DNA from: Microtetraspora sp. NBRC 13810
GTDB lineage: Bacteria > Actinomycetota > Actinomycetes > Streptosporangiales > Streptosporangiaceae
Assembly (NCBI RefSeq): GCF_030268685.1
Contig: NZ_BSRQ01000024.1
Span: 62,001 to 126,000, forward strand
DNA length: 64,000 nucleotides
Direction of reading: 5' to 3'
Shown here: positions 50,750 through 63,905 of the stretch, piece by piece
How the letters are laid out: each line of letters starts with the position of its first letter
Position numbering within the stretch: position 1 is the stretch's first letter
Notes under the pieces: model-generated
Databases searched by the model: none
Told to the model about the DNA's origin: nothing
What the model saw: only the letters and a program-made list of their open reading frames with translations
Translations under genes and position numbers: made by a program

Positions 50750-50796
50750 TGCCCCCGGCAGGATTCGAACCTGCGGCACCCGCTTTAGGAGAGCGC
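50750..50796 (-). tRNA. 3' half of tRNA-Arg(CCT), probable attachment site
   Basis: Read on the minus strand: anticodon loop CTCCTAA (anticodon CCT), anticodon 3' arm AGCGG, variable loop, T arm GCAGG-TTCGAAT-CCTGC, acceptor strand CGGGGGC and discriminator A at 50750. The 5' half is absent: no GCCCCCG acceptor strand or D arm is found in the 80 bases upstream. Integrative elements that use tRNA genes leave such 3' duplicates at one end. The missing 5' side points to the right, so the inserted element starts at about 50800. Confidence 0.65.
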
Positions 50797-50989: not shown

Positions 50990-52120
50990 TCATTCAGCGG
51001 GACGGTCGGATGCAGGACTCAAATATTGAATTCTCTGCGTAGACACCAAAAGATCTTGAAGGATAAATATCTCCGGAGTTGACATCAGTCCCGATAATCC
51101 TCCGATTATGTGCATCACAGTCAACCAACAGGAGTTAACGAATTTCTTGCGAACCTCTAAGTCGTCAACAAAGATACCGAGATTCTTTCCCGCTAGCTCA
51201 TCTCGGGCAATTTCTGCAATTACCTTTACTCCTGGCGGGGCGTCCACGTCATTCAAAAGAAACATCTCAATGAAGTAGTCTTCAGAAATTCCCAGTCTTC
51301 GGGCGCCGATCTGTATACAACTCATGACAAACACGAGAGACGTCAGAGACGCTTCCATTGGCTCGGCTTCGCATCGCTCCATCAAGAACTCAACATAACT
51401 GCCGAACACTTCTCTATCGTCGAGCCACCAGGTTGTTAATGCTCGTGCCATGGCAGATGCGCACAGCGGATCCAAAATTGCGTCATGTTGATAGTTGTCA
51501 CACAATTGCGCTAACGACCGCAAGGTGGCCCTCAAGACAGCCGGATCTACTGTGTCGTGATTACGGACAGCATAGGAATCCCACTGATCATTTCCTTGAA
51601 GGAACGTTATGCCGGGAACACCCAGGAGTTCGGAGCGATCTCCCTCGGGAAGAGATCTCAATATTCGCCATAACTCTTGCGGGTCCCAGTCGGAAAGGAT
51701 CTCGACTCCTTGCGATATCGGATCCGATCGCAACAATTCGAGTTCACGGGTTATTTCGGCAGACATCCCAAAGAAGTCGTTATGAACGAGTCGCCATCTT
51801 TGCATCTCGGGCCATTTGGTTCGAGCGCCGCGAAAATCACTCAAAATCTTCGCACGAATATCGGATCTACGCTTTTTAGAGAAGGGTGCATAGACGGAAT
51901 ACAGAGTCTTGGTTGTCGAGTCCCATCCATCACACTTGGCGTCGCCATACGTGCCGCCCGGTCTCGCTAAATGAAATGAAGTACCATTAGCCAATCTCAT
52001 AATTTTAGAAAATAGGTCTTCAAACTCATCGGCTCTGGCGTGCAGAATCATGAGCTTAAACTTCTGCTCCTGCCATAGAAGCATTACTGAGCTCTCCATA
52101 TATCTCATGAATGCTCCCAC
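50990..52120 (-). CDS. PDDEXK-like nuclease-domain protein resembling ABC-3C system proteins
   Basis: 376 residues from ATG 52120. N-terminal domain (about residues 30-135): DEFEDLFSKIMRLANGTSFHLARPGGTYGDAKCDGWDSTTKTLYSVYAPF, then RAKILSDFRGARTKWPEMQRWRLVHNDFFGMS. This closely recalls the start of proteins annotated as ABC-three-component (ABC-3C) system proteins, where the E...GDxKCDG...YAP residues form a restriction-endonuclease-like core. The C-terminal 240 residues are helical and not recognised. GC content is visibly much lower than elsewhere in the window, pointing to recent acquisition. It stands alone at the left end of the element with no ATPase partner. A defence role is inference. 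Confidence 0.65.
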   Translation of the reverse strand: MGAFMRYMESSVMLLWQEQKFKLMILHARADEFEDLFSKIMRLANGTSFHLARPGGTYGDAKCDGWDSTTKTLYSVYAPFSKKRRSDIRAKILSDFRGARTKWPEMQRWRLVHNDFFGMSAEITRELELLRSDPISQGVEILSDWDPQELWRILRSLPEGDRSELLGVPGITFLQGNDQWDSYAVRNHDTVDPAVLRATLRSLAQLCDNYQHDAILDPLCASAMARALTTWWLDDREVFGSYVEFLMERCEAEPMEASLTSLVFVMSCIQIGARRLGISEDYFIEMFLLNDVDAPPGVKVIAEIARDELAGKNLGIFVDDLEVRKKFVNSCWLTVMHIIGGLSGLMSTPEIFILQDLLVSTQRIQYLSPASDRPAE

Positions 52121-52423: not shown

Positions 52424-52690
52424 CTACTCGGATGTCTCGTCGGATTCCGTGGTGCGTTCCTCAGCGCTGGTGACGAAGCTGCCCATGCCGCGTTCGGTGC
52501 GGATCCATCGGTCCTTGCGCAGAGCGTTCATGACCTTTTGTGCGGTCTGGGTGGCGATGCCGAACTCTTGGGTGAGGTCAACGACCGAGGGGATTCGCTG
52601 ACCTGGCCTGTACTGGCCGGCTTCGATGCGCTGGACGATGATGTCTCGCACCTGGCGCCACCTGGGCAGATCGTCCCGCAATTCGGTCAT
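52424..52690 (-). CDS. Small GntR-family regulator
   Basis: 88 residues. Winged helix only: WRQVRDIIVQRIEAGQYRPGQRIPSVVDLTQEFGIATQTAQKVMNALRKDRWIRTERGMGSFVTS, then an acidic tail. It lacks an effector-binding domain, like many AICE-borne GntR repressors. GAACA (52731-52735) and TGTTC (52744-52748) upstream form a possible operator. Confidence 0.88.
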   Translation of the reverse strand: MTELRDDLPRWRQVRDIIVQRIEAGQYRPGQRIPSVVDLTQEFGIATQTAQKVMNALRKDRWIRTERGMGSFVTSAEERTTESDETSE

Positions 52691-52950: not shown

Positions 52951-53250
52951 GTGAGCACCTTGGGCCACCTGGCGGCGTACTACCACGGCATCCACGTAGC
53001 TCCGCTGCGCGACGGTCACGAGGTGCTGCACTGGCGTCCCCGGGTGCCGCGCTTCGATCGGGTCCGGGTCCGTGAGCACACCTGCGAGTGCGAGCCACTC
53101 ACCTATGAGTTCTGCACGGCGGGCGGGGTGGCGTTCATCCGCCGACGTCGGGGCGAGGGCAAGAAGATCACCCTGCGGGAGACCGAGTGGCTGTTAACCG
53201 CCGAAGCGGAGCGCCTGTGGACGGCGATCCTCACCGGATGGGCCTGCTGA
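52951..53250 (+). CDS. Hypothetical protein
   Basis: 99 residues from GTG 52951. Sequence: GHLAAYYHGIHVAPLRDGHEVLHWRPRVPRF, then CECEPLTYEFCTAGGVAFIRRR and a C-terminal helix LRETEWLLTAEAERLWTAILTGWA. Two Cys in CEC and one in EFC might bind metal. No family recognised. Its TGA overlaps an ATG of the next frame, so the two genes form one transcript. Confidence 0.6.
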   Translation: MSTLGHLAAYYHGIHVAPLRDGHEVLHWRPRVPRFDRVRVREHTCECEPLTYEFCTAGGVAFIRRRRGEGKKITLRETEWLLTAEAERLWTAILTGWAC

Positions 53251-53276
53251 TGGTGTCGGAGACAGGAAGGGAACCC

Positions 53277-53822
53277 ATGTCCGATCGGCTGCTCTCGGCG
53301 CACACGTCGACTCCGGTGACCTACGGCCCGTTGCTCGATGGGTGGTACGCGGAAACCGGTGCATCGGGCGTCCTCTACGCGCGCCGCACTCTCGAACGGC
53401 CGTTGGAGCGTCATGAGGTGCTTGCCGGGCTCACCCGCTACCTCGTGGCGCACAGCCTGAACGAGCTGATCCGTCTCATCGCTGGGCAACGGCGCATCGA
53501 GGAATACCTACAGGCAGGATCTCCACCGCCAGCGTGCCCGTACTGCGGGCGCGGTCCGGGGGAGGCTCCGATCATCGTGACCGTGGATGAGTCGTCTGTC
53601 ACGGCGGAGAGCTGCGCGCGGAGCTACGGGATCGGCGCCGAGTGCGGGCACACTCGGGTCGAGTGGACCTATGAGCTTCCGCTTCCCGACGGGGCGCGCT
53701 GCCGTGACTGCGGCATTTGGTGGCGGCTCGACCTGATCCCCGACGAGGTGGCGGCCCGGCTCAATGACGGCACTCCGCCTGGGGGCATCCAGCGTCCCGC
53801 AAACGATCATAGGCACTCATGA
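53277..53822 (+). CDS. Hypothetical protein with a zinc ribbon-like motif
   Basis: 181 residues from ATG 53277, preceded by AGGAAGG; an upstream ATG at 53250 overlaps the previous stop. The N-terminal half is helical (LERPLERHEVLAGLTRYLVAHSLNELIRLIAGQRRIEEYL). The C-terminal half has CPYCGRG and, 65 residues later, CRDCG, forming a likely zinc site. Function unknown. The last 62 bases overlap the convergent kinase-like gene. Confidence 0.65.
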   Translation: MSDRLLSAHTSTPVTYGPLLDGWYAETGASGVLYARRTLERPLERHEVLAGLTRYLVAHSLNELIRLIAGQRRIEEYLQAGSPPPACPYCGRGPGEAPIIVTVDESSVTAESCARSYGIGAECGHTRVEWTYELPLPDGARCRDCGIWWRLDLIPDEVAARLNDGTPPGGIQRPANDHRHS

Positions 53823-54351
53823 TCTCGCGTGCTGCGGCGTCGGCTCCGAGACGGTCGGTGTGGATGCGCAGATGAAAGAACCCGGCATCGGTGTTGGTCT
53901 CCAAGTCGGCGAGCGTTTCGTCCCATGCGGCAAGGCGCTTGGTGGTGTCGACGTCCCTGCGGGCCTGGGATCGCTGCTCGGTGACCTCGCGCGGGATCCA
54001 CAGCAGCACACGGAACCACCCGTCGGGGACCTTGCCGACGAGTTGCCGCAGATCACTGACATTGCCCATGTGTACGACGGGGACGTAGCCGGCGGCGTGG
54101 CGGTCTTCGATCGTCTGGCGGTCGATGGCGTAGACGTTGCCGTAGCGGTGGGTCTCGGCGACCAGGCGGCCGGCGTCGCGGAGCTCGTCCAGATGCTCGG
54201 CGCTGACGAACTCGTAGCCATCGGCCCGACCGGTGCCGACCTTGAGCTTGGGCAACAGAACGAACCGAGCGTCCAGGCGAGTGAGGGCGGCGGTGACTGT
54301 GTCCTTGCCACTGGCGGGCGGGCCGTACAGGACGATTCCCTGCGGGCTCAC
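53761..54351 (-). CDS. Guanylate kinase-like P-loop protein
   Basis: 196 residues from GTG 54351. Walker A is GPPASGKDTV (about residues 10-19). The rest resembles a guanylate kinase: GYEFVSAEHLDELRDAGRLVAETHRYGNVYAIDRQTIEDRHAAGYVPVVHMGNVSDLRQL, where the GMP-binding Tyr/Glu region and the lid would be, followed by LWIPREVTEQRSQARR. The GTGA at 54351-54348 overlaps the stop of the upstream kinase gene, so they are translationally coupled. As a mobile-element gene it is unlikely to be the housekeeping Gmk. It may phosphorylate a nucleotide or nucleotide-like compound. Confidence 0.75.
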   Translation of the reverse strand: MSPQGIVLYGPPASGKDTVTAALTRLDARFVLLPKLKVGTGRADGYEFVSAEHLDELRDAGRLVAETHRYGNVYAIDRQTIEDRHAAGYVPVVHMGNVSDLRQLVGKVPDGWFRVLLWIPREVTEQRSQARRDVDTTKRLAAWDETLADLETNTDAGFFHLRIHTDRLGADAAAREIMSAYDRLRDAGCPQAECRH

Positions 54352-55385
54352 GCCAGGATCCGCTTAAGGGCTTCGCGGGTCTGGTCGGCAAGGCTGATGG
54401 CAGCGCCAAGCCGGTTGTCGATGGTGACGTGTGCGGTGGGCGGGCTGGACTCGACGTCCAAGCTCGCGGCGTACTGCTCCCAGTTGCTCAGCTTCCAGGC
54501 GTCACGGGCAGCACCGCGGAACTCGATGTATTCGCGCATCGACTCGGGGTCGCAGCGGACCCAGATCGCCGCCACGTCGATCCCCTTGGCGGCGCACCGG
54601 TTCTCCAGGCGGGTGAACCACGCCTCGTCCTTGAGTTCAGCGATGAACGGAGCTGCCAGGATGGCCGAGGTTCCGACGTTGAGGTTGTCCCATGCGGTCT
54701 CCATCAGGCACCGGTACTCCAGCGGCCGGACCTCCTTGAGGTACAGGTCGGTGTGGCGGTCGTTGGGGTCGCCGCCAAGGGAGACGAGCAGCCGTTCGAC
54801 GATGGATCGAGTCAGGGAGTCCTTGTCCAGGAACGCCCATCCGGTGATGTCGGACAGGAAGCGGGAGAACTCGGTCTTGCCGGATCCTGCGTACCCGCCG
54901 ACTAGGGCGAGGATGGGACGGGGGTTGCCTCCGCCGTGGCGCCTGCGCCAGGCGTCGACCACCCGGCTGCGAAGGAGCGCCGGCGGGGAGTCGCCTGCCG
55001 TGATCTCGTCGATGGAGACCTTGGTGAACGCGCTCTCGATGACCTGCGCGGCGGCGTCGTCGGTGGCGGGATCAGAGGGCGCAGGCAAATCGGAAATCAC
55101 GATTTCCGCTTTCTGTGATTCACCGGGCAATGGAGGACGAAAGCCTAGTTCGGGCTCGGTGGCCTTGTAGAGCAGGCAGTAAGCACGCCGATAATGCGGG
55201 CCGGGAAACACGGTGCCTTGCTCGTGACCCCAGATGGTCTGGAAGTTGGCCGCGGGCACGGTCAGGCCGTGGCGGGCGGCTGCCTGGCGGAGCCGTTCGC
55301 CGGTGGCCTCCAGGGTGAGGCCGTGGGCTTCGCGGTGTTCCCGCAGGCGGGAGGGGATCCAGCCCTGTCGCTGGGTCGTCTTCAT
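54348..55385 (-). CDS. HTH-P-loop kinase fusion
   Basis: 345 residues from ATG 55385. N-terminal XRE-like helix-turn-helix (about residues 10-70: LREHREAHGLTLEATGERLRQAAARHGLTVPAANFQTIWGHEQGTVFPGPHYRRAYCLLY). Then a linker to about 135 and a P-loop kinase of the AAA_33/zeta-like type: Walker A GGYAGSGKTEFS (about residue 170), WAFLDKDSLTRSIVERLL, IAAIWVRCDPESMREYIEFRGAARDAWKL with the arginine finger and lid. Putting a DNA-binding domain and a small-molecule or nucleotide kinase in one chain suggests a regulator that reads a substrate. It is followed directly by the guanylate-kinase-like gene. Confidence 0.75.
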   Translation of the reverse strand: MKTTQRQGWIPSRLREHREAHGLTLEATGERLRQAAARHGLTVPAANFQTIWGHEQGTVFPGPHYRRAYCLLYKATEPELGFRPPLPGESQKAEIVISDLPAPSDPATDDAAAQVIESAFTKVSIDEITAGDSPPALLRSRVVDAWRRRHGGGNPRPILALVGGYAGSGKTEFSRFLSDITGWAFLDKDSLTRSIVERLLVSLGGDPNDRHTDLYLKEVRPLEYRCLMETAWDNLNVGTSAILAAPFIAELKDEAWFTRLENRCAAKGIDVAAIWVRCDPESMREYIEFRGAARDAWKLSNWEQYAASLDVESSPPTAHVTIDNRLGAAISLADQTREALKRILA

Positions 55386-55582
55386 TGCATACCTTCGCCT
55401 TCACGCTTCGGGGGTGGTGCGCGGTGTGCGGTCGTGCATGTGAAAACGCATGTGTAAATCGTCGGTAGGGCAACCTGATGAAGCTTAACTAGATCAGCGT
55501 GATACCGAAACTCCGCAGCTCACGGTGAACTTAGGTCATCCCGAAAGGCGAAAGGCGCCGGGGATGAGCAGGAGAGACGAGC

Positions 55583-55729
55583 ATGAATGCGGACGAGCGA
55601 CGAATCATTTCCGAACTGGCCGAAATGCGGGCTCAGTTGGACGAGTTGGCCTGCCGGGTCGAACAGATCACTTCTGCTCTGGGAAGACGGCCGATTCCAG
55701 AGCGGCAAGCCGATCCCTCAGCTCCTTGA
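55583..55729 (+). CDS. Small coiled-coil protein of 48 residues
   Basis: ATG 55583 with AGGAGAG about 10 bases upstream. Sequence: NADERRIISELAEMRAQLDELACRVEQITSALGRR then a proline-rich end; heptad-like leucines and isoleucines give a short coil. The 3' end overlaps the convergent GntR gene by 62 bases. Codon use fits a gene, but the overlap and shortness leave doubt. Confidence 0.5.
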   Translation: MNADERRIISELAEMRAQLDELACRVEQITSALGRRPIPERQADPSAP

Positions 55730-56036
55730 GCGACTGACGCATCTGGGCAAGCTGGTCCAGGATCTCGCCGGTCGCACCGGACGCGCTGACTGCCTCGGGA
55801 ACTTCGGCGGGGACTTCGCGGACGAACACGCCCTTGCCCTGCTGGCCGATCACGGCTCCCTCGGTGCGAAGAACGCTGATGGCGGCCTTGACCACGCTGG
55901 CGGAGACGTCGAAGCGCTCACCCAACTGGGCGATGGACGGCAGCGCGGTGCCGGCGGGAAGTGCTCCGCTGCGGATCTGGCCACGTAGCTCGTCGACGAT
56001 CTGCAAGTAGGCCGGTTGGCCGGTCTTCTCCACCAT
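55668..56036 (-). CDS. GntR-family regulator with coiled-coil tail (KorSA-like)
   Basis: 122 residues from ATG 56036. Winged helix: QPAYLQIVDELRGQIRSGALPAGTALPSIAQLGERFDVSASVVKAAISVLRTEGAVIGQQGKGVFVRE. Then a short C-terminal coil (LDQLAQMRQSLKELRDRLAALES). In pSAM2 a GntR protein (KorSA) represses the transfer and replication operon. Here the gene is divergent from that operon and separated by a region full of repeated GCACC half-sites. Confidence 0.9.
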   Translation of the reverse strand: MVEKTGQPAYLQIVDELRGQIRSGALPAGTALPSIAQLGERFDVSASVVKAAISVLRTEGAVIGQQGKGVFVREVPAEVPEAVSASGATGEILDQLAQMRQSLKELRDRLAALESAVFPEQK

Positions 56037-56232: not shown

Positions 56233-56580
56233 ATGCGCACCATCCCCATCCCCGTCGACACCACCAAGCTCCAGATCACCTGCGTCAAGCCCGCCAAGCC
56301 CCGCCTCGTCAACAAGGACACCGGCGAGATCAAGCGCGACAAGGACGGCAACATCATGTACGAACTCACCTTCCTGTTCGAAGACGAGTTCAACCGGATG
56401 GAACTCGTCAAGATCAGCACCACCCCCGAACCGCAGATCATCGCCGGTGAGGAAGTCATCCCCGTCGGCCTGGTCGGCTACGTCTGGGAACAGGGCGGAC
56501 GCTGGGGCATCTCCTACCGAGCCACCTCCTTCCGCCCCGCCGGCTCCGCCCTCCCGGCTAGAACGGGGGCGGACCTGTGA
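56233..56580 (+). CDS. SCO3933-family regulatory protein
   Basis: 115 residues, ATG 56233 after AAAGGAACG. Family features: PVDTTKLQITCVKPAKPRLVNKDTGEIKRDKDGNIMYELTFLFEDE, then VGLVGYVWEQGGRWGISYRATSFRPA. Such proteins are found only in AICE transfer operons just before the FtsK-like gene. Fold and role are unknown, although the family is named regulatory. Its TGA overlaps the tra start (GTGA). Confidence 0.88.
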   Translation: MRTIPIPVDTTKLQITCVKPAKPRLVNKDTGEIKRDKDGNIMYELTFLFEDEFNRMELVKISTTPEPQIIAGEEVIPVGLVGYVWEQGGRWGISYRATSFRPAGSALPARTGADL

Positions 56581-57953
56581 TCGACCTCGACCACCCCCTG
56601 TTCAAGATCCTCGCCATCCTGCTCCTGCTCGCCGCCTGGCGGCGCTGGGCCCCGACTTCCTACTGGTACGTCCTCGTCTTTCCCCGTAAAGCCATCTGGC
56701 TGCGCTGGTCCTGGCGCCACGTCGCCTCCGGCTGCGGACTGACCAAGAAGCGCTACCGCTGGTGGTTCACCACCGTTCCCGGATTGGTCGCCTCTACCGG
56801 CGTCGTACGCGTCAAGCGCCGCTTCCAACGCGTCGCGGTCGACACCAAGCCCTGGATGGGCCTGCCCTGGCCCACCCGCGGCGGCTTCCGCATCACCTTC
56901 CACCTGCTCGACGGACAGGTGCCCGACGACTACGCGAAAGTCTGCGAGCGCCTCGCACACGCCTGGCGGATCGAAGCGGTTCGGGTCGTCGGCTCCCGGC
57001 CCGGCCGCGTCACCCTCCAAGGCATCAACCACGACCCCCTCGCCCACGTCGCACCCGCCGTACCCCCGACCGAACCACGCGACGGCTGGCGGGCCGACGA
57101 CCTGCTACGGCCGATCGTCGGGGTCCTGGAGACCGGCGCGGCCTGGCGGATGGACCTGCGGCTCATCCCGCACTGGATGAACGCCGGCGCCACCCAGTCA
57201 GGCAAGTCCAACCTGATCAACGCCCTCATCGTCGGCCTGTCCCCGCAACCGGTCGCCCTGGTCGGCTTCGACCTCAAGGGCGGGGTGGAGCTGTCGGCCT
57301 ACGCGGCTCGACTGACCGCGCTTGCCACTACCCGCGCCGAGTGCCTCGACCTGCTCAGCGACCTCATCGCCGTCATGGGCGCCCGGATGCTGGCCTGTCG
57401 CCGCTACGGGGTGCGCGACATCTGGCAACTCCCCGATGCCTCCCGACCGATCCCGGTCGTGGTCCTGGTCGACGAGGTCGCAGAGCTGTTCCTGACCGCC
57501 GACAAGGCTGAGAAGGATCAAGTCACCCGTACGGCTACCGCACTGCTGCGCATCGCCCAGCTCGGTCGCGCCTTCGGTATCCACCTGATCCTGTCCGGCC
57601 AGCGCATCGGCTCCGACCTCGGCCCCGGCGTGACCGCGCTGCGTGCCCAGATCGGCGGACGGGTCTGCCACCGAGTCAACGACCCCGAAACCGCGGTGAT
57701 GACCCTCGGCGACCTCGACCCCGACGCCCTCGTAGCCGCCCGCTCCATCGCCCCCGAACTCCCCGGCGTAGCTGTGATCACCGGATCCGACGGCCGGTGG
57801 TACCGCGCCCGGTCCGGCTACGTCTCCACCACCGCCGCCGAGCAAGCCGCCCACACCTACGCACAGATGACCCCCTCCTGGGCGCAGGTCGCCGCCTCCG
57901 GCCTCGGCCACGAACTCCCCGGCGTCGACAACATCCCCGAGATCGCCGCCTAA
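56577..57953 (+). CDS. FtsK/SpoIIIE-type DNA translocase (TraSA/TraB-like)
   Basis: 458 residues from GTG 56577. A short N-terminal membrane helix (LFKILAILLLLAAWRRW), then a region of about 180 residues and the FtsK motor: Walker A GATQSGKSNLINALI (about residues 203-217), Walker B PVVVLVDEVAELF, HLILSGQRIGSD and GRVCHRVNDPETAVMTLGD. Pumps double-stranded DNA between hyphae during transfer of AICEs, at the cell membrane, as a hexamer. Full length, with intact nucleotide sites. Confidence 0.93.
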   Translation: MIDLDHPLFKILAILLLLAAWRRWAPTSYWYVLVFPRKAIWLRWSWRHVASGCGLTKKRYRWWFTTVPGLVASTGVVRVKRRFQRVAVDTKPWMGLPWPTRGGFRITFHLLDGQVPDDYAKVCERLAHAWRIEAVRVVGSRPGRVTLQGINHDPLAHVAPAVPPTEPRDGWRADDLLRPIVGVLETGAAWRMDLRLIPHWMNAGATQSGKSNLINALIVGLSPQPVALVGFDLKGGVELSAYAARLTALATTRAECLDLLSDLIAVMGARMLACRRYGVRDIWQLPDASRPIPVVVLVDEVAELFLTADKAEKDQVTRTATALLRIAQLGRAFGIHLILSGQRIGSDLGPGVTALRAQIGGRVCHRVNDPETAVMTLGDLDPDALVAARSIAPELPGVAVITGSDGRWYRARSGYVSTTAAEQAAHTYAQMTPSWAQVAASGLGHELPGVDNIPEIAA

Positions 57954-57974: not shown

Positions 57975-58706
57975 GTGACCACGACCGCGCCTCGCCTGGC
58001 CCTACGGCTGGCCGACTCCGCCCCCGTCCTCATCCTCGCCCTGATCGCCGGGGCCGGCAGCTTCACCCACATCCGCGACACCGCCACCGAACACGGACAG
58101 GACGGCTGGATGGCCTGGGCCGTGGCCATCTGCGTCGACCTCACGTGCGTCATGGCCGCGCGGGAACGGCAACGCGACAAGAAGAACGGGCGGGAACGAG
58201 ACGGCTGGATCTCATGGCCCACCCTCGTCCTCGTCGGCGGGATCGTCCTGTCCCTAGCCGCCAACCTCGCCCAAGCCGAACCCTCGACCTGGGGATGGAT
58301 CACCGCCGCGACCCCGGCCGGGGCGTTCCTGATCGCGGTCTCCATGCTGGAGCGCCGCGCCTCAGAACCCCGTCCCGAACCGTCCCCGGCACTCGTCCCC
58401 GCTGCGGACGCCGTACCGGAAACCCTCCCCGCGAGCATCCCCGAACCCTCGGCGCCTGCCCTGCTGTCCGGCCTCACTGTCCCCGGCGAGAACGGCCAGA
58501 ACGAACAGAACGGCACCGAGAACGGCCAGAACGAAGCCGGTACGACCGGTGCGCTTCTCGACTACGCCCGCCGCGTCGCCGACGAACACCACGCCCGACA
58601 CGGCAGACCCATCACCCGCGACACCCTGCGCGCCCGCCTCGGCGTCTCCAGCCAACTCGCCTCCGACCTCCTGCGCTCCCTACGCGACAGCCCCGAACCC
58701 GCCTGA
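57975..58706 (+). CDS. DUF2637 spread protein (SpdB-like)
   Basis: 243 residues. Four hydrophobic segments in the first 120 residues (APVLILALIAGAGSFTHI, WMAWAVAICVDLTCVMAAR, WPTLVLVGGIVLSLAANL, WGWITAATPAGAFLIAVSML), the DUF2637 pattern. Then a proline-rich linker with an NGQNEQNGTENGQNE stretch and a C-terminal winged-helix-like domain (YARRVADEHHARHGRPITRDTLRARLGVSSQLASDLLRSL). Proteins of this type spread the element along the mycelium after entry. Directly downstream of tra. Confidence 0.87.
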   Translation: MTTTAPRLALRLADSAPVLILALIAGAGSFTHIRDTATEHGQDGWMAWAVAICVDLTCVMAARERQRDKKNGRERDGWISWPTLVLVGGIVLSLAANLAQAEPSTWGWITAATPAGAFLIAVSMLERRASEPRPEPSPALVPAADAVPETLPASIPEPSAPALLSGLTVPGENGQNEQNGTENGQNEAGTTGALLDYARRVADEHHARHGRPITRDTLRARLGVSSQLASDLLRSLRDSPEPA

Positions 58707-59282: not shown

Positions 59283-59425
59283 CCGACACCCCCGATGACC
59301 CCGACGACCGCGCCCCGTTCATCGCCCCCGCTCCGAAGCGCTGGCTGTGCTGCCACTGCGGAGGAACCGGCGTCGACAGCCACAGCCAGACCTGCGAGCA
59401 CTGCGAGGGCCTCGGCTTCAGCTGA
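59279..59425 (+). CDS. Small zinc-finger protein (DnaJ-type CxxCxGxG)
   Basis: 48 residues from GTG 59279. A proline/acidic lead-in, then CHCGGTG and CEHCEGLG, two CxxCxGxG motifs making one DnaJ-type zinc centre. Common as a stand-alone small gene before repSA in AICEs. Likely binds protein or nucleic acid; role unknown. Confidence 0.7.
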   Translation: MTDTPDDPDDRAPFIAPAPKRWLCCHCGGTGVDSHSQTCEHCEGLGFS

Positions 59426-59529
59426 GAGTCCTCAGCGCCCCCGGCGTGACCACACATCCGCCAAGACGTCCGCCACGTCGGGGGCCATCCCACACCGAAC
59501 ATCCACAGCCCGGAAGGGACACCCCCATC

Positions 59530-60906
59530 ATGCCAAGCACCTACGCGGTAGCCGGGATGATCACCCGGCTCCACGACCCCCAATACGCCCGCTGGGCCTC
59601 CCAGATCCGCCGGACCGGCGGCTGCCGACAGCCCATCCACCTGCGTGGCCACGTCCACCACGTCGACCCCACCACCGGCAAGCGCCTGCACAGCTACAGC
59701 ACCGCAGGCGAACCCGACGGCATTCTGCGACTGCCCTGCAAGACCCGTCGCGCGACTCGCTGTCCCTCCTGCGCCGAGACCTACCGCTCCGACACCTATC
59801 AACTCGTCCGCGCCGGCCTCGTCGGCGGCAAGGGCGTCCCCGCCTCGGTCACCGCCCACCCCTGCCTTTTCGTCACCCTCACCGCCCCCTCCTTCGGCAC
59901 CGTCCACACCCGCCGAGAGAAGAACGGCACCGTCCAGCCCTGCCACGCCCGACGAGACGCGACCACCTGCCCGCACGGACGCGTCATGTCCTGCACCGCC
60001 CGGCACGGAGCCGACGAATCGTGCCTCGGAGAACCGCTGTGCCCGGAGTGCTACGACTACGCGGGCAGCGTGCTGTTCAACGCCATGTCCCCGGAACTGT
60101 GGCGCCGCTTCACCGAAGCCCTGCGCCGGCGCATCGCCAAGAACGCCGGACTGACGCAACGGGAGCTGCGCGAGCAGGCCGTCATCTCCTTCGCCAAAGT
60201 CGCCGAGTACCAGCGGCGCGGGGTTGTCCACTTCCACGCCGTGATCCGGGTCGACGGTCCCGAGGGGCCGATCACCACTCCGCCGGCCTGGGCGACGGCC
60301 GACCTGATGACCGACGCCGTACAACACGCCGCCTCCGCCGTTGCGGTCACCGTCCCCGCAGTACCCGGTGAACCCACCCGGGCCTTCAGCTGGGGAACCC
60401 AACTCGACGTACGCCAAATCACCCTGAACGGTGACCTCACTGACCAGGCCGTAGCCGCTTACATCGCCAAGTACGCCACCAAAGCCGCCGAATGCGTCGG
60501 CACCCTGGACCGGCGCATCAACCCCCTCGACGACCTGAGCGCGCTCCCGATCCGCGACCATGCCCGACGCCTTATCGCCGAGTGCATGCGCCTGGGCGCC
60601 CTCGACGAGCTGACCGAGTTCCGGCTCATCAAATGGGCGAACATGCTGGGCTTCCGCGGCCACTTCGCAACGAAGAGCCGTCGCTACTCCACCACCATGG
60701 GCAAGCTCCGTGAAGCACGCGCCGAACACGTACGCCGTGAGCAGGTCACCGCAGGATGGCTCCCTCTCTTCGACGAGGACACCGTTCTAGTGATCTCCCA
60801 TTGGGAGTACGTCGGAAAGGGCCTGTCGGTCGGTGACGCGCTTCTCGCCGCCGCGTTGACCGGAAGACCTCTGCTCCCGCCCTCGGTGCCCGGGGGAGGT
60901 GTCTGA
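59530..60906 (+). CDS. repSA: Replication initiator RepSA
   Basis: 458 residues from ATG 59530. Rolling-circle-type initiator of AICEs: an N-terminal cysteine-rich region (TRRATRCPSCAETYRSDTY, CPECYDYAG), the metal-binding HUH motif in VVHFHAVIRVDG (about residue 234), and the catalytic tyrosine region AAYIAKYATKAAE (about residues 309-316). The C-terminus holds ITHWEYVGKG-like VISHWEYVGKG. It nicks the element's double-strand origin in excised circles. Its stop overlaps xis. Confidence 0.92.
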   Translation: MPSTYAVAGMITRLHDPQYARWASQIRRTGGCRQPIHLRGHVHHVDPTTGKRLHSYSTAGEPDGILRLPCKTRRATRCPSCAETYRSDTYQLVRAGLVGGKGVPASVTAHPCLFVTLTAPSFGTVHTRREKNGTVQPCHARRDATTCPHGRVMSCTARHGADESCLGEPLCPECYDYAGSVLFNAMSPELWRRFTEALRRRIAKNAGLTQRELREQAVISFAKVAEYQRRGVVHFHAVIRVDGPEGPITTPPAWATADLMTDAVQHAASAVAVTVPAVPGEPTRAFSWGTQLDVRQITLNGDLTDQAVAAYIAKYATKAAECVGTLDRRINPLDDLSALPIRDHARRLIAECMRLGALDELTEFRLIKWANMLGFRGHFATKSRRYSTTMGKLREARAEHVRREQVTAGWLPLFDEDTVLVISHWEYVGKGLSVGDALLAAALTGRPLLPPSVPGGGV

Positions 60907-61100
60907 TGCCTCGGCACGATGACAAGCTCCTCACCCTGCCCGAAGTGCTGGAGGAGTTGAACGGCATCTCGCGCCGCACCTTCTACCGGTGGCGTGAACT
61001 CGGCAAGGCGCCCGCCTGCATCCAGTACCCCAATGACGAGCTGCGTGTCCGGCGGAGCGACCTCGAAGCATGGCTCGACTCGCTGCGGGAGGCGTCATGA
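60906..61100 (+). CDS. xis: Excisionase (Xis), MerR-type helix-turn-helix
   Basis: 64 residues; ATG overlaps the repSA TGA. KLLTLPEVLEELNGISRRTFYRWRELGKAPACIQYPNDELRVRRSDLEAWLDSL is a winged-helix recombination directionality factor. It bends attachment-site DNA so that Int excises the element. ATGA overlap with int makes the three genes one coupled unit. Confidence 0.93.
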   Translation: MPRHDDKLLTLPEVLEELNGISRRTFYRWRELGKAPACIQYPNDELRVRRSDLEAWLDSLREAS

Positions 61101-61795
61101 TCACCAGCTATGACGTGCGCTTCTGGGAAGTCCGCCGGAACCGGTCGAGCAAGACGCCGTCATTCGAGGCGCGTTGGAAGGTCGGGAGTAAGCCGAAGTC
61201 CAAGACCTTCCGGACCAAGGCACTGGCTGAGAACTTCCTGTCCGACCTTCGCCAGGCGGCCAAGAAGGGAGAGGCGTTCGACCTCGCCACCGGACTGCCG
61301 GTCTCGATGTTGTCCGCGGAGCTTGAGCCCTCCGGGCCGTCCTTCCTGGAGTTCGCGCAGTCGTACGCGGTCGGCCGATGGCGGCGGACGGCTCCTCGAA
61401 CGCGGGAGACCGAGGCTTACGCTCTGTTGTCGCTCGTCCCGGCATTGGTTGCGGACGTTCCGGATCGACCGGAGGTCGACGAACTACGACACGTGTTGCG
61501 GAATCACGTGTTGCTCCCCGAGAACCGGAGAGGGGAACTGAACCGTAGGCAGGCAACGGTGCTGCGGTGGCTTGAGAAGGCATCCCTTCCATTGGTCGAC
61601 CTCCAAGAGGCTCACGTCGTCAGGGGCGCGCTCGATGCCGTCTCGTCCACCTTCGACGGCAAGGAAGCGGCGGCCAATACGGTGCGGCGTAAGCGGGCGA
61701 TCTTTCACCACCTTCTGGAGCTGGCGGTAGAGCAGAAGGTGTTCACGGCCAACCCCCTGCACGAGATCAAATGGAAGCCACCCAAGGCCGTCACT

Positions 61796-62710
61796 GAGCC
61801 TTTTTCATCCTGGCGGTAGAGGTGCTGATCACGACATGATCGCAGGTCGGGGGTTCGCCTGAAGACGTAGTAGAGCCCCTGGTAGACGGGTTGATCACCA
61901 CAATCTGTCCGTCACCACCAGGAGCTCTGGGTGCTGTTCTACCGTGCCTCGGTCGATTTGTCGCGTTCAACGCTGAACTACGTGGCCGGGCTGATCCGCC
62001 GGCACCGCAAGGCGATCGGATCGACCTGGCGGCTGCTCAACCCCGGACAGCAAGCGCTGCCGGTACTGGTCCACCTGCGCAAGGGCGAGACCTTCGACGA
62101 GCTCGGAGCCGGTTTCGGCCTGTCAACGGCGACGGCGTGGCGGTACGTACAGGAGACGGTGATGCTGCTGTCGGCCCGCTCGCCCAAGCTCGGGCAGGCC
62201 CTGCGCAAGGCCGGCAAGGACGGGCTTCACTACCTGGTGCTGGACGGCACGCTCATCCGTACCGATCGGATCAAGGCCGACCGCCCCTACTTCTCCGGCA
62301 AGCATCGCGTGCACGGGATGAACGTCCAGGTCATCGCCTCGCCTAGCGGGACGATCGTGTGGACCTCGGGTGCGCTGCCGGGAAAGACGCATGATCTGAG
62401 TGCGGCCCGGATCTGGGGCATCCTGCGTGCGTTGGAACATGCTGGGATCGTCGTCCTGGCGGACAAGGGCTACCAAGGAGCCGAACGCCCGGTCATCACT
62501 CCGTACAAGGGCAGGAACAAGCCCGAGCCGCAGAAACAGGCCAATCGGTCACACGCTCGCCTTCGCGGCCCGGGTGAGCGTGCGAACGCCCAGCTCAAGA
62601 GCTGGCGGATCCTCCGCAAGCTCCGATGTAGCCCCGGCAAAGCCGGACACCTATGCAAGGCCATCGCTGTCCTTCAGAACCACCGGCTTGCCCACGGATG
62701 AAAAAGGCTC
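61796..62710 (+). mobile_element. IS5-family (ISL2 group) insertion sequence, 915 bp
   Basis: Perfect 15-base inverted repeats: GAGCCTTTTTCATCC at 61796-61810 and its complement at 62696-62710. Three-base direct repeats ACT flank it (61793-61795 and 62711-62713), the ANT type known for the ISL2 group. One transposase gene inside. It lies within the AICE integrase. The short length, exact repeats and duplicated target indicate a recent, intact insertion. Confidence 0.93.
61931..62701 (+). CDS. IS5-family transposase (DDE_Tnp_4)
   Basis: 256 residues from GTG 61931, preceded by CCAGGAGC. N-terminal helix-turn-helix: RKGETFDELGAGFGLSTATAWRYVQETV. DDE residues: YLVLDGTLIRTDRI, VVLADKGYQGAE and GPGERANAQLKSWRILRKLRC. 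Its stop codon lies inside the right inverted repeat (the TGA of GGATGA). Intact and probably active. Confidence 0.92.
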   Translation: MLFYRASVDLSRSTLNYVAGLIRRHRKAIGSTWRLLNPGQQALPVLVHLRKGETFDELGAGFGLSTATAWRYVQETVMLLSARSPKLGQALRKAGKDGLHYLVLDGTLIRTDRIKADRPYFSGKHRVHGMNVQVIASPSGTIVWTSGALPGKTHDLSAARIWGILRALEHAGIVVLADKGYQGAERPVITPYKGRNKPEPQKQANRSHARLRGPGERANAQLKSWRILRKLRCSPGKAGHLCKAIAVLQNHRLAHG

Positions 62711-63405
62711 ACTGTCGTCGACCCTCGTACGGTGGTCAACCCAGCTCAGGCGAAGGAACTCCTGGCCGCGGTGCCCAAGGTCGGTCGTACCAGGGGCGTA
62801 CGACTCAGGGCCATGTTCGCGTGTATCTACTATGCGGGACTGCGGCCGGAGGAGGCCGCGGACCTTCGCCTGAAGAACTGCACCCTGCCCGAATCGGGAT
62901 GGGGTCAGATCATCCTTGAGAAAGCCCGACCGCAGGCGAACAAGCGGTGGACCAACTCGGGGCAGACCCACGAATCTCGCAGCCTCAAGCATCGGGCGAA
63001 GAAGGAGACCAGAGAGATTCCCATCCCGCCTGTTCTGGTCGCCATCCTTCGCGAGCACATCAACGCCTACGGCACCGAGGACGACGGCCGGCTGTTCCGC
63101 ACGACCAAGGGCGGTTCCTACTCCAGTTCGGCATGCTCCTACGTATGGCAGGAGGCTCGGGCCCTCGCCTTCACTGATGAGCAAGTAAAGTCACCGCTTG
63201 CCGCCCGGCTCTATGACCTGCGGCACGCTGCCCTGTCTCTCTGGCTCAACGCAGGCGTACCGGCTACCGAGGTGGCCAAACGAGCCGGCCACAGCGTGGA
63301 GGTTCTCCACCGGGTATACGCCAAGTGCATGGAGGGCCAGCAGGAACGGACGAACGGAAAGATCAGCAGCGCTCTCGACGAGTGATCGCTATAGATGCTT
63401 CCCCC

Positions 63406-63429
63406 AGGCCCCGGCATAGGTCGGGGCCT
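63406..63429. terminator. Bidirectional terminator between int and the NUDIX gene
   Basis: Perfect 8-bp stem AGGCCCCG (63406-63413) and CGGGGCCT (63422-63429) with an 8-base loop, 20 bases after the integrase stop. It overlaps the NUDIX stop codon, so it serves both convergent genes. There is no long T-run. Confidence 0.65.
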
Positions 63430-63905
63430 CAGCCTATGTGTGGCTTACCTGTTCCTTCGAGGAAGTGACTGATCCGTAGGCGCATTGACCCATCCATTGG
63501 TAATGAGTAGATCTCATCCCGCGGCACCCAGCGCACCTCTCGGGATTCGTCGCTCGGCGTCGGCTCTCCGCCGACGGCTCGACCGGTGAGCACGATGGAA
63601 AACTCCTGGCGGGCTTCGCCGTTGCTGGTGTAGAGAATCACATGCTTGGGGTCGGTGTACGTCCCGACAAGGCCGGTGATCTCGCACCTGATCCCGGTTT
63701 CCTCCAACGTCTCCCGGATCGCTGCCTCGGGCAAGGACTCACCCAGGTCGATCGCGCCACCGGGGACAGCCCAGTTGCCATTGTCGCTGCGGCGGATCAT
63801 CAAGATCTTACCTGTCTTGTTGATGACCACGACGTTTACTGACGGGACCAGGCTGTTGGACTCAGGCGCAGCGGGGTCGTCATAGAAGTCGATTCGGGCG
63901 CTCAC
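63429..63905 (-). CDS. NUDIX hydrolase
   Basis: 158 residues from GTG 63905. Nudix box GGAIDLGESLPEAAIRETLEETGI (GX5EX7REUXEEXGU, complete) with the preceding KILMIRRSDNGNWAVPGG strand. Hydrolyses a nucleoside diphosphate linked to another group, in the cytoplasm. In pSAM2 the pif gene for a NUDIX protein inhibits redundant transfer between cells carrying the element; position at the end of an AICE makes that the leading idea here. It reads leftward and converges on int. Confidence 0.9.
   Translation of the reverse strand: MSARIDFYDDPAAPESNSLVPSVNVVVINKTGKILMIRRSDNGNWAVPGGAIDLGESLPEAAIRETLEETGIRCEITGLVGTYTDPKHVILYTSNGEARQEFSIVLTGRAVGGEPTPSDESREVRWVPRDEIYSLPMDGSMRLRISHFLEGTGKPHIG

Follow-up and report, generated by a model that had tools for sequence, protein, structure and literature searches.

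A helix-turn-helix-kinase and a guanylate-kinase-fold protein form a probable self-regulating operon on actinobacterial mobile elements

NadR, a metabolite-sensing repressor, combines a helix-turn-helix (HTH) domain with a P-loop nucleoside kinase. BzdR of Azoarcus joins an XRE domain to a sensor of kinase fold and controls a promoter in response to a metabolite (PMC3602430). The epsilon-zeta and PezAT systems, found on mobile DNA, pair a zeta-like P-loop phosphotransferase with DNA binding by an HTH (PMC6362051), and in the kor/pra/tra gene order described for pSAM2-like elements, the gene of a GntR repressor is divergent from those of a small protein and TraSA/FtsK (PMC8584621). Among the conserved genes of actinomycete integrative and conjugative elements (AICEs) and Streptomyces plasmids, many have no assigned role, and here we report on a gene pair that is common on these very different elements. 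The pair was analysed in a 64,000-nucleotide stretch of the genome of Microtetraspora sp. NBRC 13810 (contig NZ_BSRQ01000024.1, positions 62,001 to 126,000; hereafter the window), in which an AICE encodes the HTH-kinase P1 and the guanylate-kinase-fold protein P2 (Table 1). We consider it probable that these genes form a self-regulating kinase operon, with P1 as a metabolite-sensing trigger enzyme and P2 acting in the same pathway, perhaps linked to conjugal transfer.

An earlier note, made from the sequence of this DNA, had described two P-loop phosphotransferase-like reading frames that overlap by four bases on an AICE, one of them with a DNA-binding domain. All of this holds: both frames were recovered on the minus strand, and their codon-position G+C follows the pattern of real genes. 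The HTH domain of P1 spans approximately residues 10–83 (HTH_31, a sub-threshold Pfam match with E 6e-4) and the P-loop kinase approximately residues 155–345 (AAA_33, E 3e-11), an order reproduced in the structure model (predicted local distance difference test, pLDDT, 85). Inactive P-loops, which would have spoken against the proposal of the earlier note, were not observed, as the P-loops of both proteins are intact and near-invariant among relatives; in P1, the Walker A motif GGYAGSGKT and the LDKD motif are invariant or nearly so. Fold searches with the P1 kinase domain gave best Z scores of 12–13 (2rhm, adenosine phosphosulfate kinase, and polynucleotide kinase), which are generic small-molecule P-loop kinases and therefore allow no substrate assignment, and P1 had no confident relative in a profile search of the PDB.

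P1 resembles BzdR in joining an XRE-type HTH to a P-loop kinase fold. It differs in that its kinase is of the AAA_33 type with intact catalytic motifs, its DNA-binding domain exists in several exchangeable forms, and it is encoded on mobile elements with a translationally coupled second kinase. The NCBIfam model of the anaerobic benzoate regulator, PRK08154, was not among the P1 matches up to E = 1. The best reading of this comparison is that P1 would work like BzdR but belongs outside the BzdR family. The likeness to NadR also lies in the combination of HTH and P-loop kinase, but P1 had no Pfam or NCBIfam match to a nicotinamide mononucleotide (NMN) adenylyltransferase domain, and the relation demonstrated is at most one of P-loop fold. 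CapK/CapS (PMC13373217), which has GHKL/STAS domains, was considered and set aside as unrelated.

The pair was next sought in 299 genomes of the order with stringent cut-offs, excluding second P1 copies with another HTH from the P1 count. We recovered 81 P1 and 81 P2 loci, with the two genes adjacent in 71/81 loci of each; both are present in 69 of the 299 genomes, and P1 is found without P2 in 10/81 loci. The co-conservation proposed as a check in the earlier note is thus borne out. An exact −4 overlap was found in 58/77 pairs of another collection, most of the remaining pairs overlapping by 1–10 bp, and the coupling is not a matter of chance. Relatives occur in Streptosporangium, Nonomuraea, Planomonospora, and allied genera. 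Dozens of Streptomyces plasmids also carry the pair, their P1 being mostly 54–58% identical. Searches of INPHARED and IMG/VR gave zero matches to P2, and those for a phage source of P1 gave just two weak phage matches. Literature searches (guanylate kinase with AICE or linear plasmid; DUF1932 with plasmid) returned nothing relevant, although subscription papers were mostly not covered by them, and the unit looks undescribed.

Upstream of P1, a putative operator consisting of the direct repeat TTTACACATGCG-TTTTCACATGCAC scores 39.3 bits, and no other site in the window is strong (runner-up 14.9). The repeat is found just upstream of P1 in 72/80 relatives, including 26/26 Streptosporangiaceae AICEs, 12/12 Actinomadura AICEs, and 34/35 Streptomyces loci among the groups with an HTH_31-type P1. 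A matrix trained on Streptosporangiaceae AICEs alone was then applied to the other groups, where it exceeded the 99th percentile of shuffled sequence in 8/8 Actinomadura AICEs and 14/17 Streptomyces loci. The sites recognised by the matrix always lie 75–96 bp before the reference start used, and besides overlapping extra repeats at the same position near P1, the scanned elements contain no other strong site. The predicted operator is directly testable in vitro. A second conserved block (GTATCAC...TAGTTAAGCTTC; 55461–55520, minus strand) precedes P1 in Streptosporangiaceae AICEs, possibly serving the short GntR regulator encoded upstream as its operator.

The DNA-binding domain attached to the kinase varies among relatives. 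In some, the P1 kinase domain is fused to GntR (PF00392, E 2e-15, with AAA_33, E 1e-10); a second kinase copy on Actinomadura AICEs bears a different XRE domain; a further actinobacterial family has a P1-like kinase with another XRE type; and the P1-like kinase domain also stands alone. The direct repeat is absent from the own promoters of the GntR-type, second-copy XRE, f92 XRE-type, and standalone kinase genes. In 7/8 GntR-type loci there is instead an inverted repeat, CTAACAGTTGA-N-TCAACTGTTAG, found elsewhere in the scanned loci only at one further GntR-type gene and confirmed in two genomes outside its discovery set. The Actinomadura XRE second copies have the direct repeat GGGGCCAG in 11/12 loci, the twelfth of which shows no second copy, and this repeat occurs in no other group. 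These two motifs were spotted by eye in few sequences, and the cross-validated matrix test applies to the first motif only. In the kinase tree, the Actinomadura XRE second copies branch from inside the HTH_31 clade, and the standalone kinases of Nonomuraea from inside that of the AICEs; therefore, both domain exchange and domain loss have occurred. Because the type of cis site tracks the type of DNA-binding domain, the P1 promoter is most likely under the control of P1 itself, for which we judge this match to be the strongest evidence. The repeated joint exchange of DNA-binding domain and operator provides a clean natural case of enzymes turning into transcription factors.

HTH autoregulation is also typical of addiction modules, and a zeta-like addiction unit was among the roles guessed in the earlier note. 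As in zeta/PezT systems, P1 would then be a fused antitoxin-toxin that poisons the cell upon loss of the element, with P2 as an accessory or antidote. The near-invariant Walker A, the placement of P1 among AAA_33/zeta-like P-loop kinases, and the presence of the pair on mobile elements fit this idea, and some P1 relatives exceed the Pfam Zeta_toxin cut-off (L066, 25.3 vs 22.3 bits). P1 itself scores 18.4 bits, under the gathering score of 22.3, and the GTxR motif, by which zeta and PezT bind UDP-N-acetylglucosamine (PMC6362051), was found in 0/75 P1 sequences. Unlike epsilon-zeta and PezAT, the HTH is fused to the kinase with no separate antitoxin gene beside P1, P1 can occur without P2, and the partners are a second kinase and metabolic enzymes (described below) that would be unexpected in an addiction module. 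We therefore regard this explanation as improbable.

P2 matches the NCBIfam guanylate kinase models weakly (E 1e-6) and falls under their equivalog cut-offs (28.3 vs 263 and 22.3 vs 160 bits). Its structure model (pLDDT 93) has the complete guanylate kinase fold, with a VIA-align Z of 19.8 to 7luy (2.5 Å over 186 residues), well above the 13.6 obtained for chloramphenicol phosphotransferase, and the P-loop, invariant or nearly so among relatives, and the LID positions are in place. In guanylate kinases, a Glu and an Asp read the guanine base and an Arg binds the phosphate. When P2 members were aligned to the ordinary Gmk that the host also owns, the P-loop Lys and two Tyr were kept and a Lys replaced the phosphate-binding Arg, while the guanine-reading Glu was kept in 0/69, the Asp in 1/69, and the Thr in none, a comparison made by sequence alignment at about 20–30% identity. 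Because the guanine-reading residues are lost, P2 is probably a guanylate-kinase-fold enzyme with an altered acceptor site rather than a GMP (guanosine monophosphate) kinase, a role against which these residues speak at the level of a low-identity alignment. The label "guanylate-kinase-like" given to P2 in the earlier note is thus right for the fold and probably wrong for the substrate, and a non-canonical nucleotide or sugar phosphate is the more likely substrate.

The Streptomyces plasmids carry, after P1-P2, a convergent DUF1932 oxidoreductase gene, whose product resembles 6-phosphogluconate dehydrogenase (6PGDH), and a HAD hydrolase gene; this four-enzyme set is found in chromosomal loci too. 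P2 and HAD form a single fused protein in Kitasatospora, one GntR-type locus has the order P1-P2-HAD, and in Pseudonocardia, successive genes encode GntR-P1, P2, and an NAD(P)-dependent oxidoreductase. The best matches of the HAD protein include the noncanonical pyrimidine nucleotidase YjjG (E 4e-23, under the equivalog cut-off). These partners suggest a small-molecule pathway, perhaps a nucleotide-like one. In five Streptomyces loci (L143, L151, L154, L156, and L158), the four-enzyme set adjoins a conserved and perhaps biosynthetic cluster, with products judged by eye as a tyrosyl-tRNA synthetase paralogue, radical SAM, alcohol dehydrogenase, glycosyltransferases, and a phosphorylase-like enzyme. 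A YjjG-like HAD gene also adjoins the tRNA-Arg(CCT) attachment end of the AICE (L164, equivalent to window positions 65559–66425). It shares 47% identity with the plasmid HAD and clusters with host paralogues in a tree, and as a partner of the P1-P2 operon it is suggestive only. HAD genes near an element end were also seen in L093, L104, L165, and L168, and on the other side in L041, L086, L089, and L092.

The four-enzyme set on both plasmids and chromosomes, the P2-HAD fusion, and the autoregulation from a single site would also be expected of a purely metabolic cargo operon, serving nucleotide or sugar-phosphate salvage or detoxification, in which the HTH provides local feedback and has no role for the element. 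What speaks against such cargo is that AICEs keep the pair without the other enzymes, and that its place at the kor side recurs from AICEs to the plasmids of Streptomyces and Pseudonocardia. In AICEs, the transfer genes and that of a small protein in the place of pra are followed, divergently, by a short GntR gene, P1, and P2; on the plasmids, P1-P2 is divergent from transfer-type genes, and at GntR-type loci the upstream genes are likewise divergent, as judged by eye. The order in the window is thus that of the pSAM2-like kor-pra-tra region, but the described region has no kinase regulator (PMC8584621), and here the P1-P2 operon comes after the GntR gene. We consider the cargo explanation unlikely, and it is only by its position that P1-P2 points to a possible role in the control of transfer.

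In the self-regulating operon that we favour, the N-terminal HTH of P1 would bind the direct repeat of the P1 promoter, and the kinase domain would tune this binding in response to a metabolite that it binds or phosphorylates, as in BzdR or NadR, so that the switch would be thrown by the metabolite or by catalysis. The translationally coupled second kinase, P2, would act in the P1 pathway, which on plasmids may be lengthened by the YjjG-like HAD phosphatase and the 6PGDH-like (DUF1932) oxidoreductase. Placed on the kor side of the transfer genes, the pair would probably tie the metabolic state of the host to maintenance or transfer of the element. If P1 is indeed a metabolite-gated repressor, host metabolism would be linked to the control of conjugative elements in actinobacteria. 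More tentatively, the system may be a conjugation switch of a new kind, in which the kinase reads a host metabolite, the DNA-binding domain (HTH_31, another XRE type, or GntR) and operator have been exchanged repeatedly, the regulator occupies the repressor position of conjugative elements, and transfer or maintenance is gated by a phosphorylated metabolite made and cleared by P1, P2, HAD, and DUF1932.

Several observations weigh against these proposals. The direct repeat was found in 0/7 Herbidospora loci (L119, L120, L122–L124, L126, and L132) despite an HTH_31-type P1, P2 being missing as well in L119 and L120. On AICEs, the site occurs at P1 only, with none at the rep-xis-int or tra genes; the HAD/DUF1932 pair is missing from AICE operons, and the HAD gene of the AICE is distant from P1. 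Another protein that follows the same lineages could also recognise the cis sites, or these could partly be promoter elements. Of the three roles guessed in the earlier note, a sensing switch on the element remains the best supported, by the exchangeable DNA-binding domain with its matching site at the P1 promoter and by the position of the pair, which flanks the transfer region on its repressor side in AICEs as on plasmids; the part in which this switch chooses between excision and maintenance is not borne out by the distribution of sites.

The third of those roles, a defence module using modified nucleotides, can be widened to an entry-exclusion or anti-phage unit akin to Pif, the NUDIX protein of pSAM2 that confers conjugal immunity (PMC3218068). 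NUDIX and HD hydrolases are common on AICEs, on which XRE genes have been reported as well (PMC3218068), a NUDIX gene is present in the AICE of the window, and a NUDIX-like reading frame adjoins P2 in the GntR-type locus L071 (8019–8552). In most elements, however, NUDIX lies outside the operon, which has no nuclease, DNA-modifying, or membrane partner, and P1, P2, HAD, and DUF1932 had no PADLOC match, although absence from that library is no proof. Such a function is highly improbable. NUDIX-like genes next to P2 or to a standalone kinase (among L071, L067, and L068) were seen as neighbours hinting at a shared nucleotide theme.

Table 1 Features of the AICE and the P1-P2 operon in the window.
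Feature	Coordinates	Strand	Basis or remark
P1, HTH-kinase, 345 aa	54348..55385	minus	ORF (open reading frame) call, domain search, and model
P2, guanylate-kinase-fold kinase, 196 aa	53761..54351	minus	4-bp overlap with P1; fold comparison
Putative P1 operator, direct repeat TTTACACATGCG-TTTTCACATGCAC	55434..55458	minus	~50 bp upstream of P1 start codon
Short GntR regulator, KorSA-like by position	55668..56036	minus	PF00392, E 5e-16; upstream of P1, same direction; conserved order
115-aa protein at pra position, divergent from GntR gene	56233..56580	plus	placed by position, not homology
TraB/FtsK-like transfer ATPase	56577..57953	plus	Pfam/NCBIfam
DUF2637 (Spd-like) membrane protein	57975..58706	plus	domain search
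RepSA replication initiator	59347..60906	plus	Pfam/NCBIfam, E 1e-163
Xis-like HTH_17 protein	60906..61100	plus	domain search
Tyrosine integrase gene, two halves with DDE insertion sequence between	61070..63385	plus	domain search
NUDIX hydrolase	63429..63905	minus	PF00293, E 2e-24
Convergent accessory ORF c14	53187..53822	plus	in a subset of relatives
Second short GntR regulator	52424..52690	minus	domain search
att core, 19 bp	50777..50795		common to intact tRNA-Arg(CCT)

The element itself has the features of an AICE, as the earlier note had it: RepSA, TraB/FtsK, DUF2637, Xis, the integrase halves, and a tRNA-Arg attachment core were all found, with the C-terminal half of the integrase recognised by the Pfam and NCBIfam searches. 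It measures ~15.7 kb and extends 2.5 kb beyond the window, where a second copy of the 19-bp core lies at 66488 in an intact tRNA-Arg(CCT) gene (66460–66533). Because its integrase is split by a DDE_Tnp_4 insertion sequence (about 61789–62717), this copy may have lost excision on its own; an intact homologue of 464 aa is present in relatives such as L093. The accessory frame c14 had no match among Pfam families. Just within the tRNA-fragment end lies a low-GC reading frame of 376 aa (50990–52120; no match in Pfam), next to high-GC neighbours.
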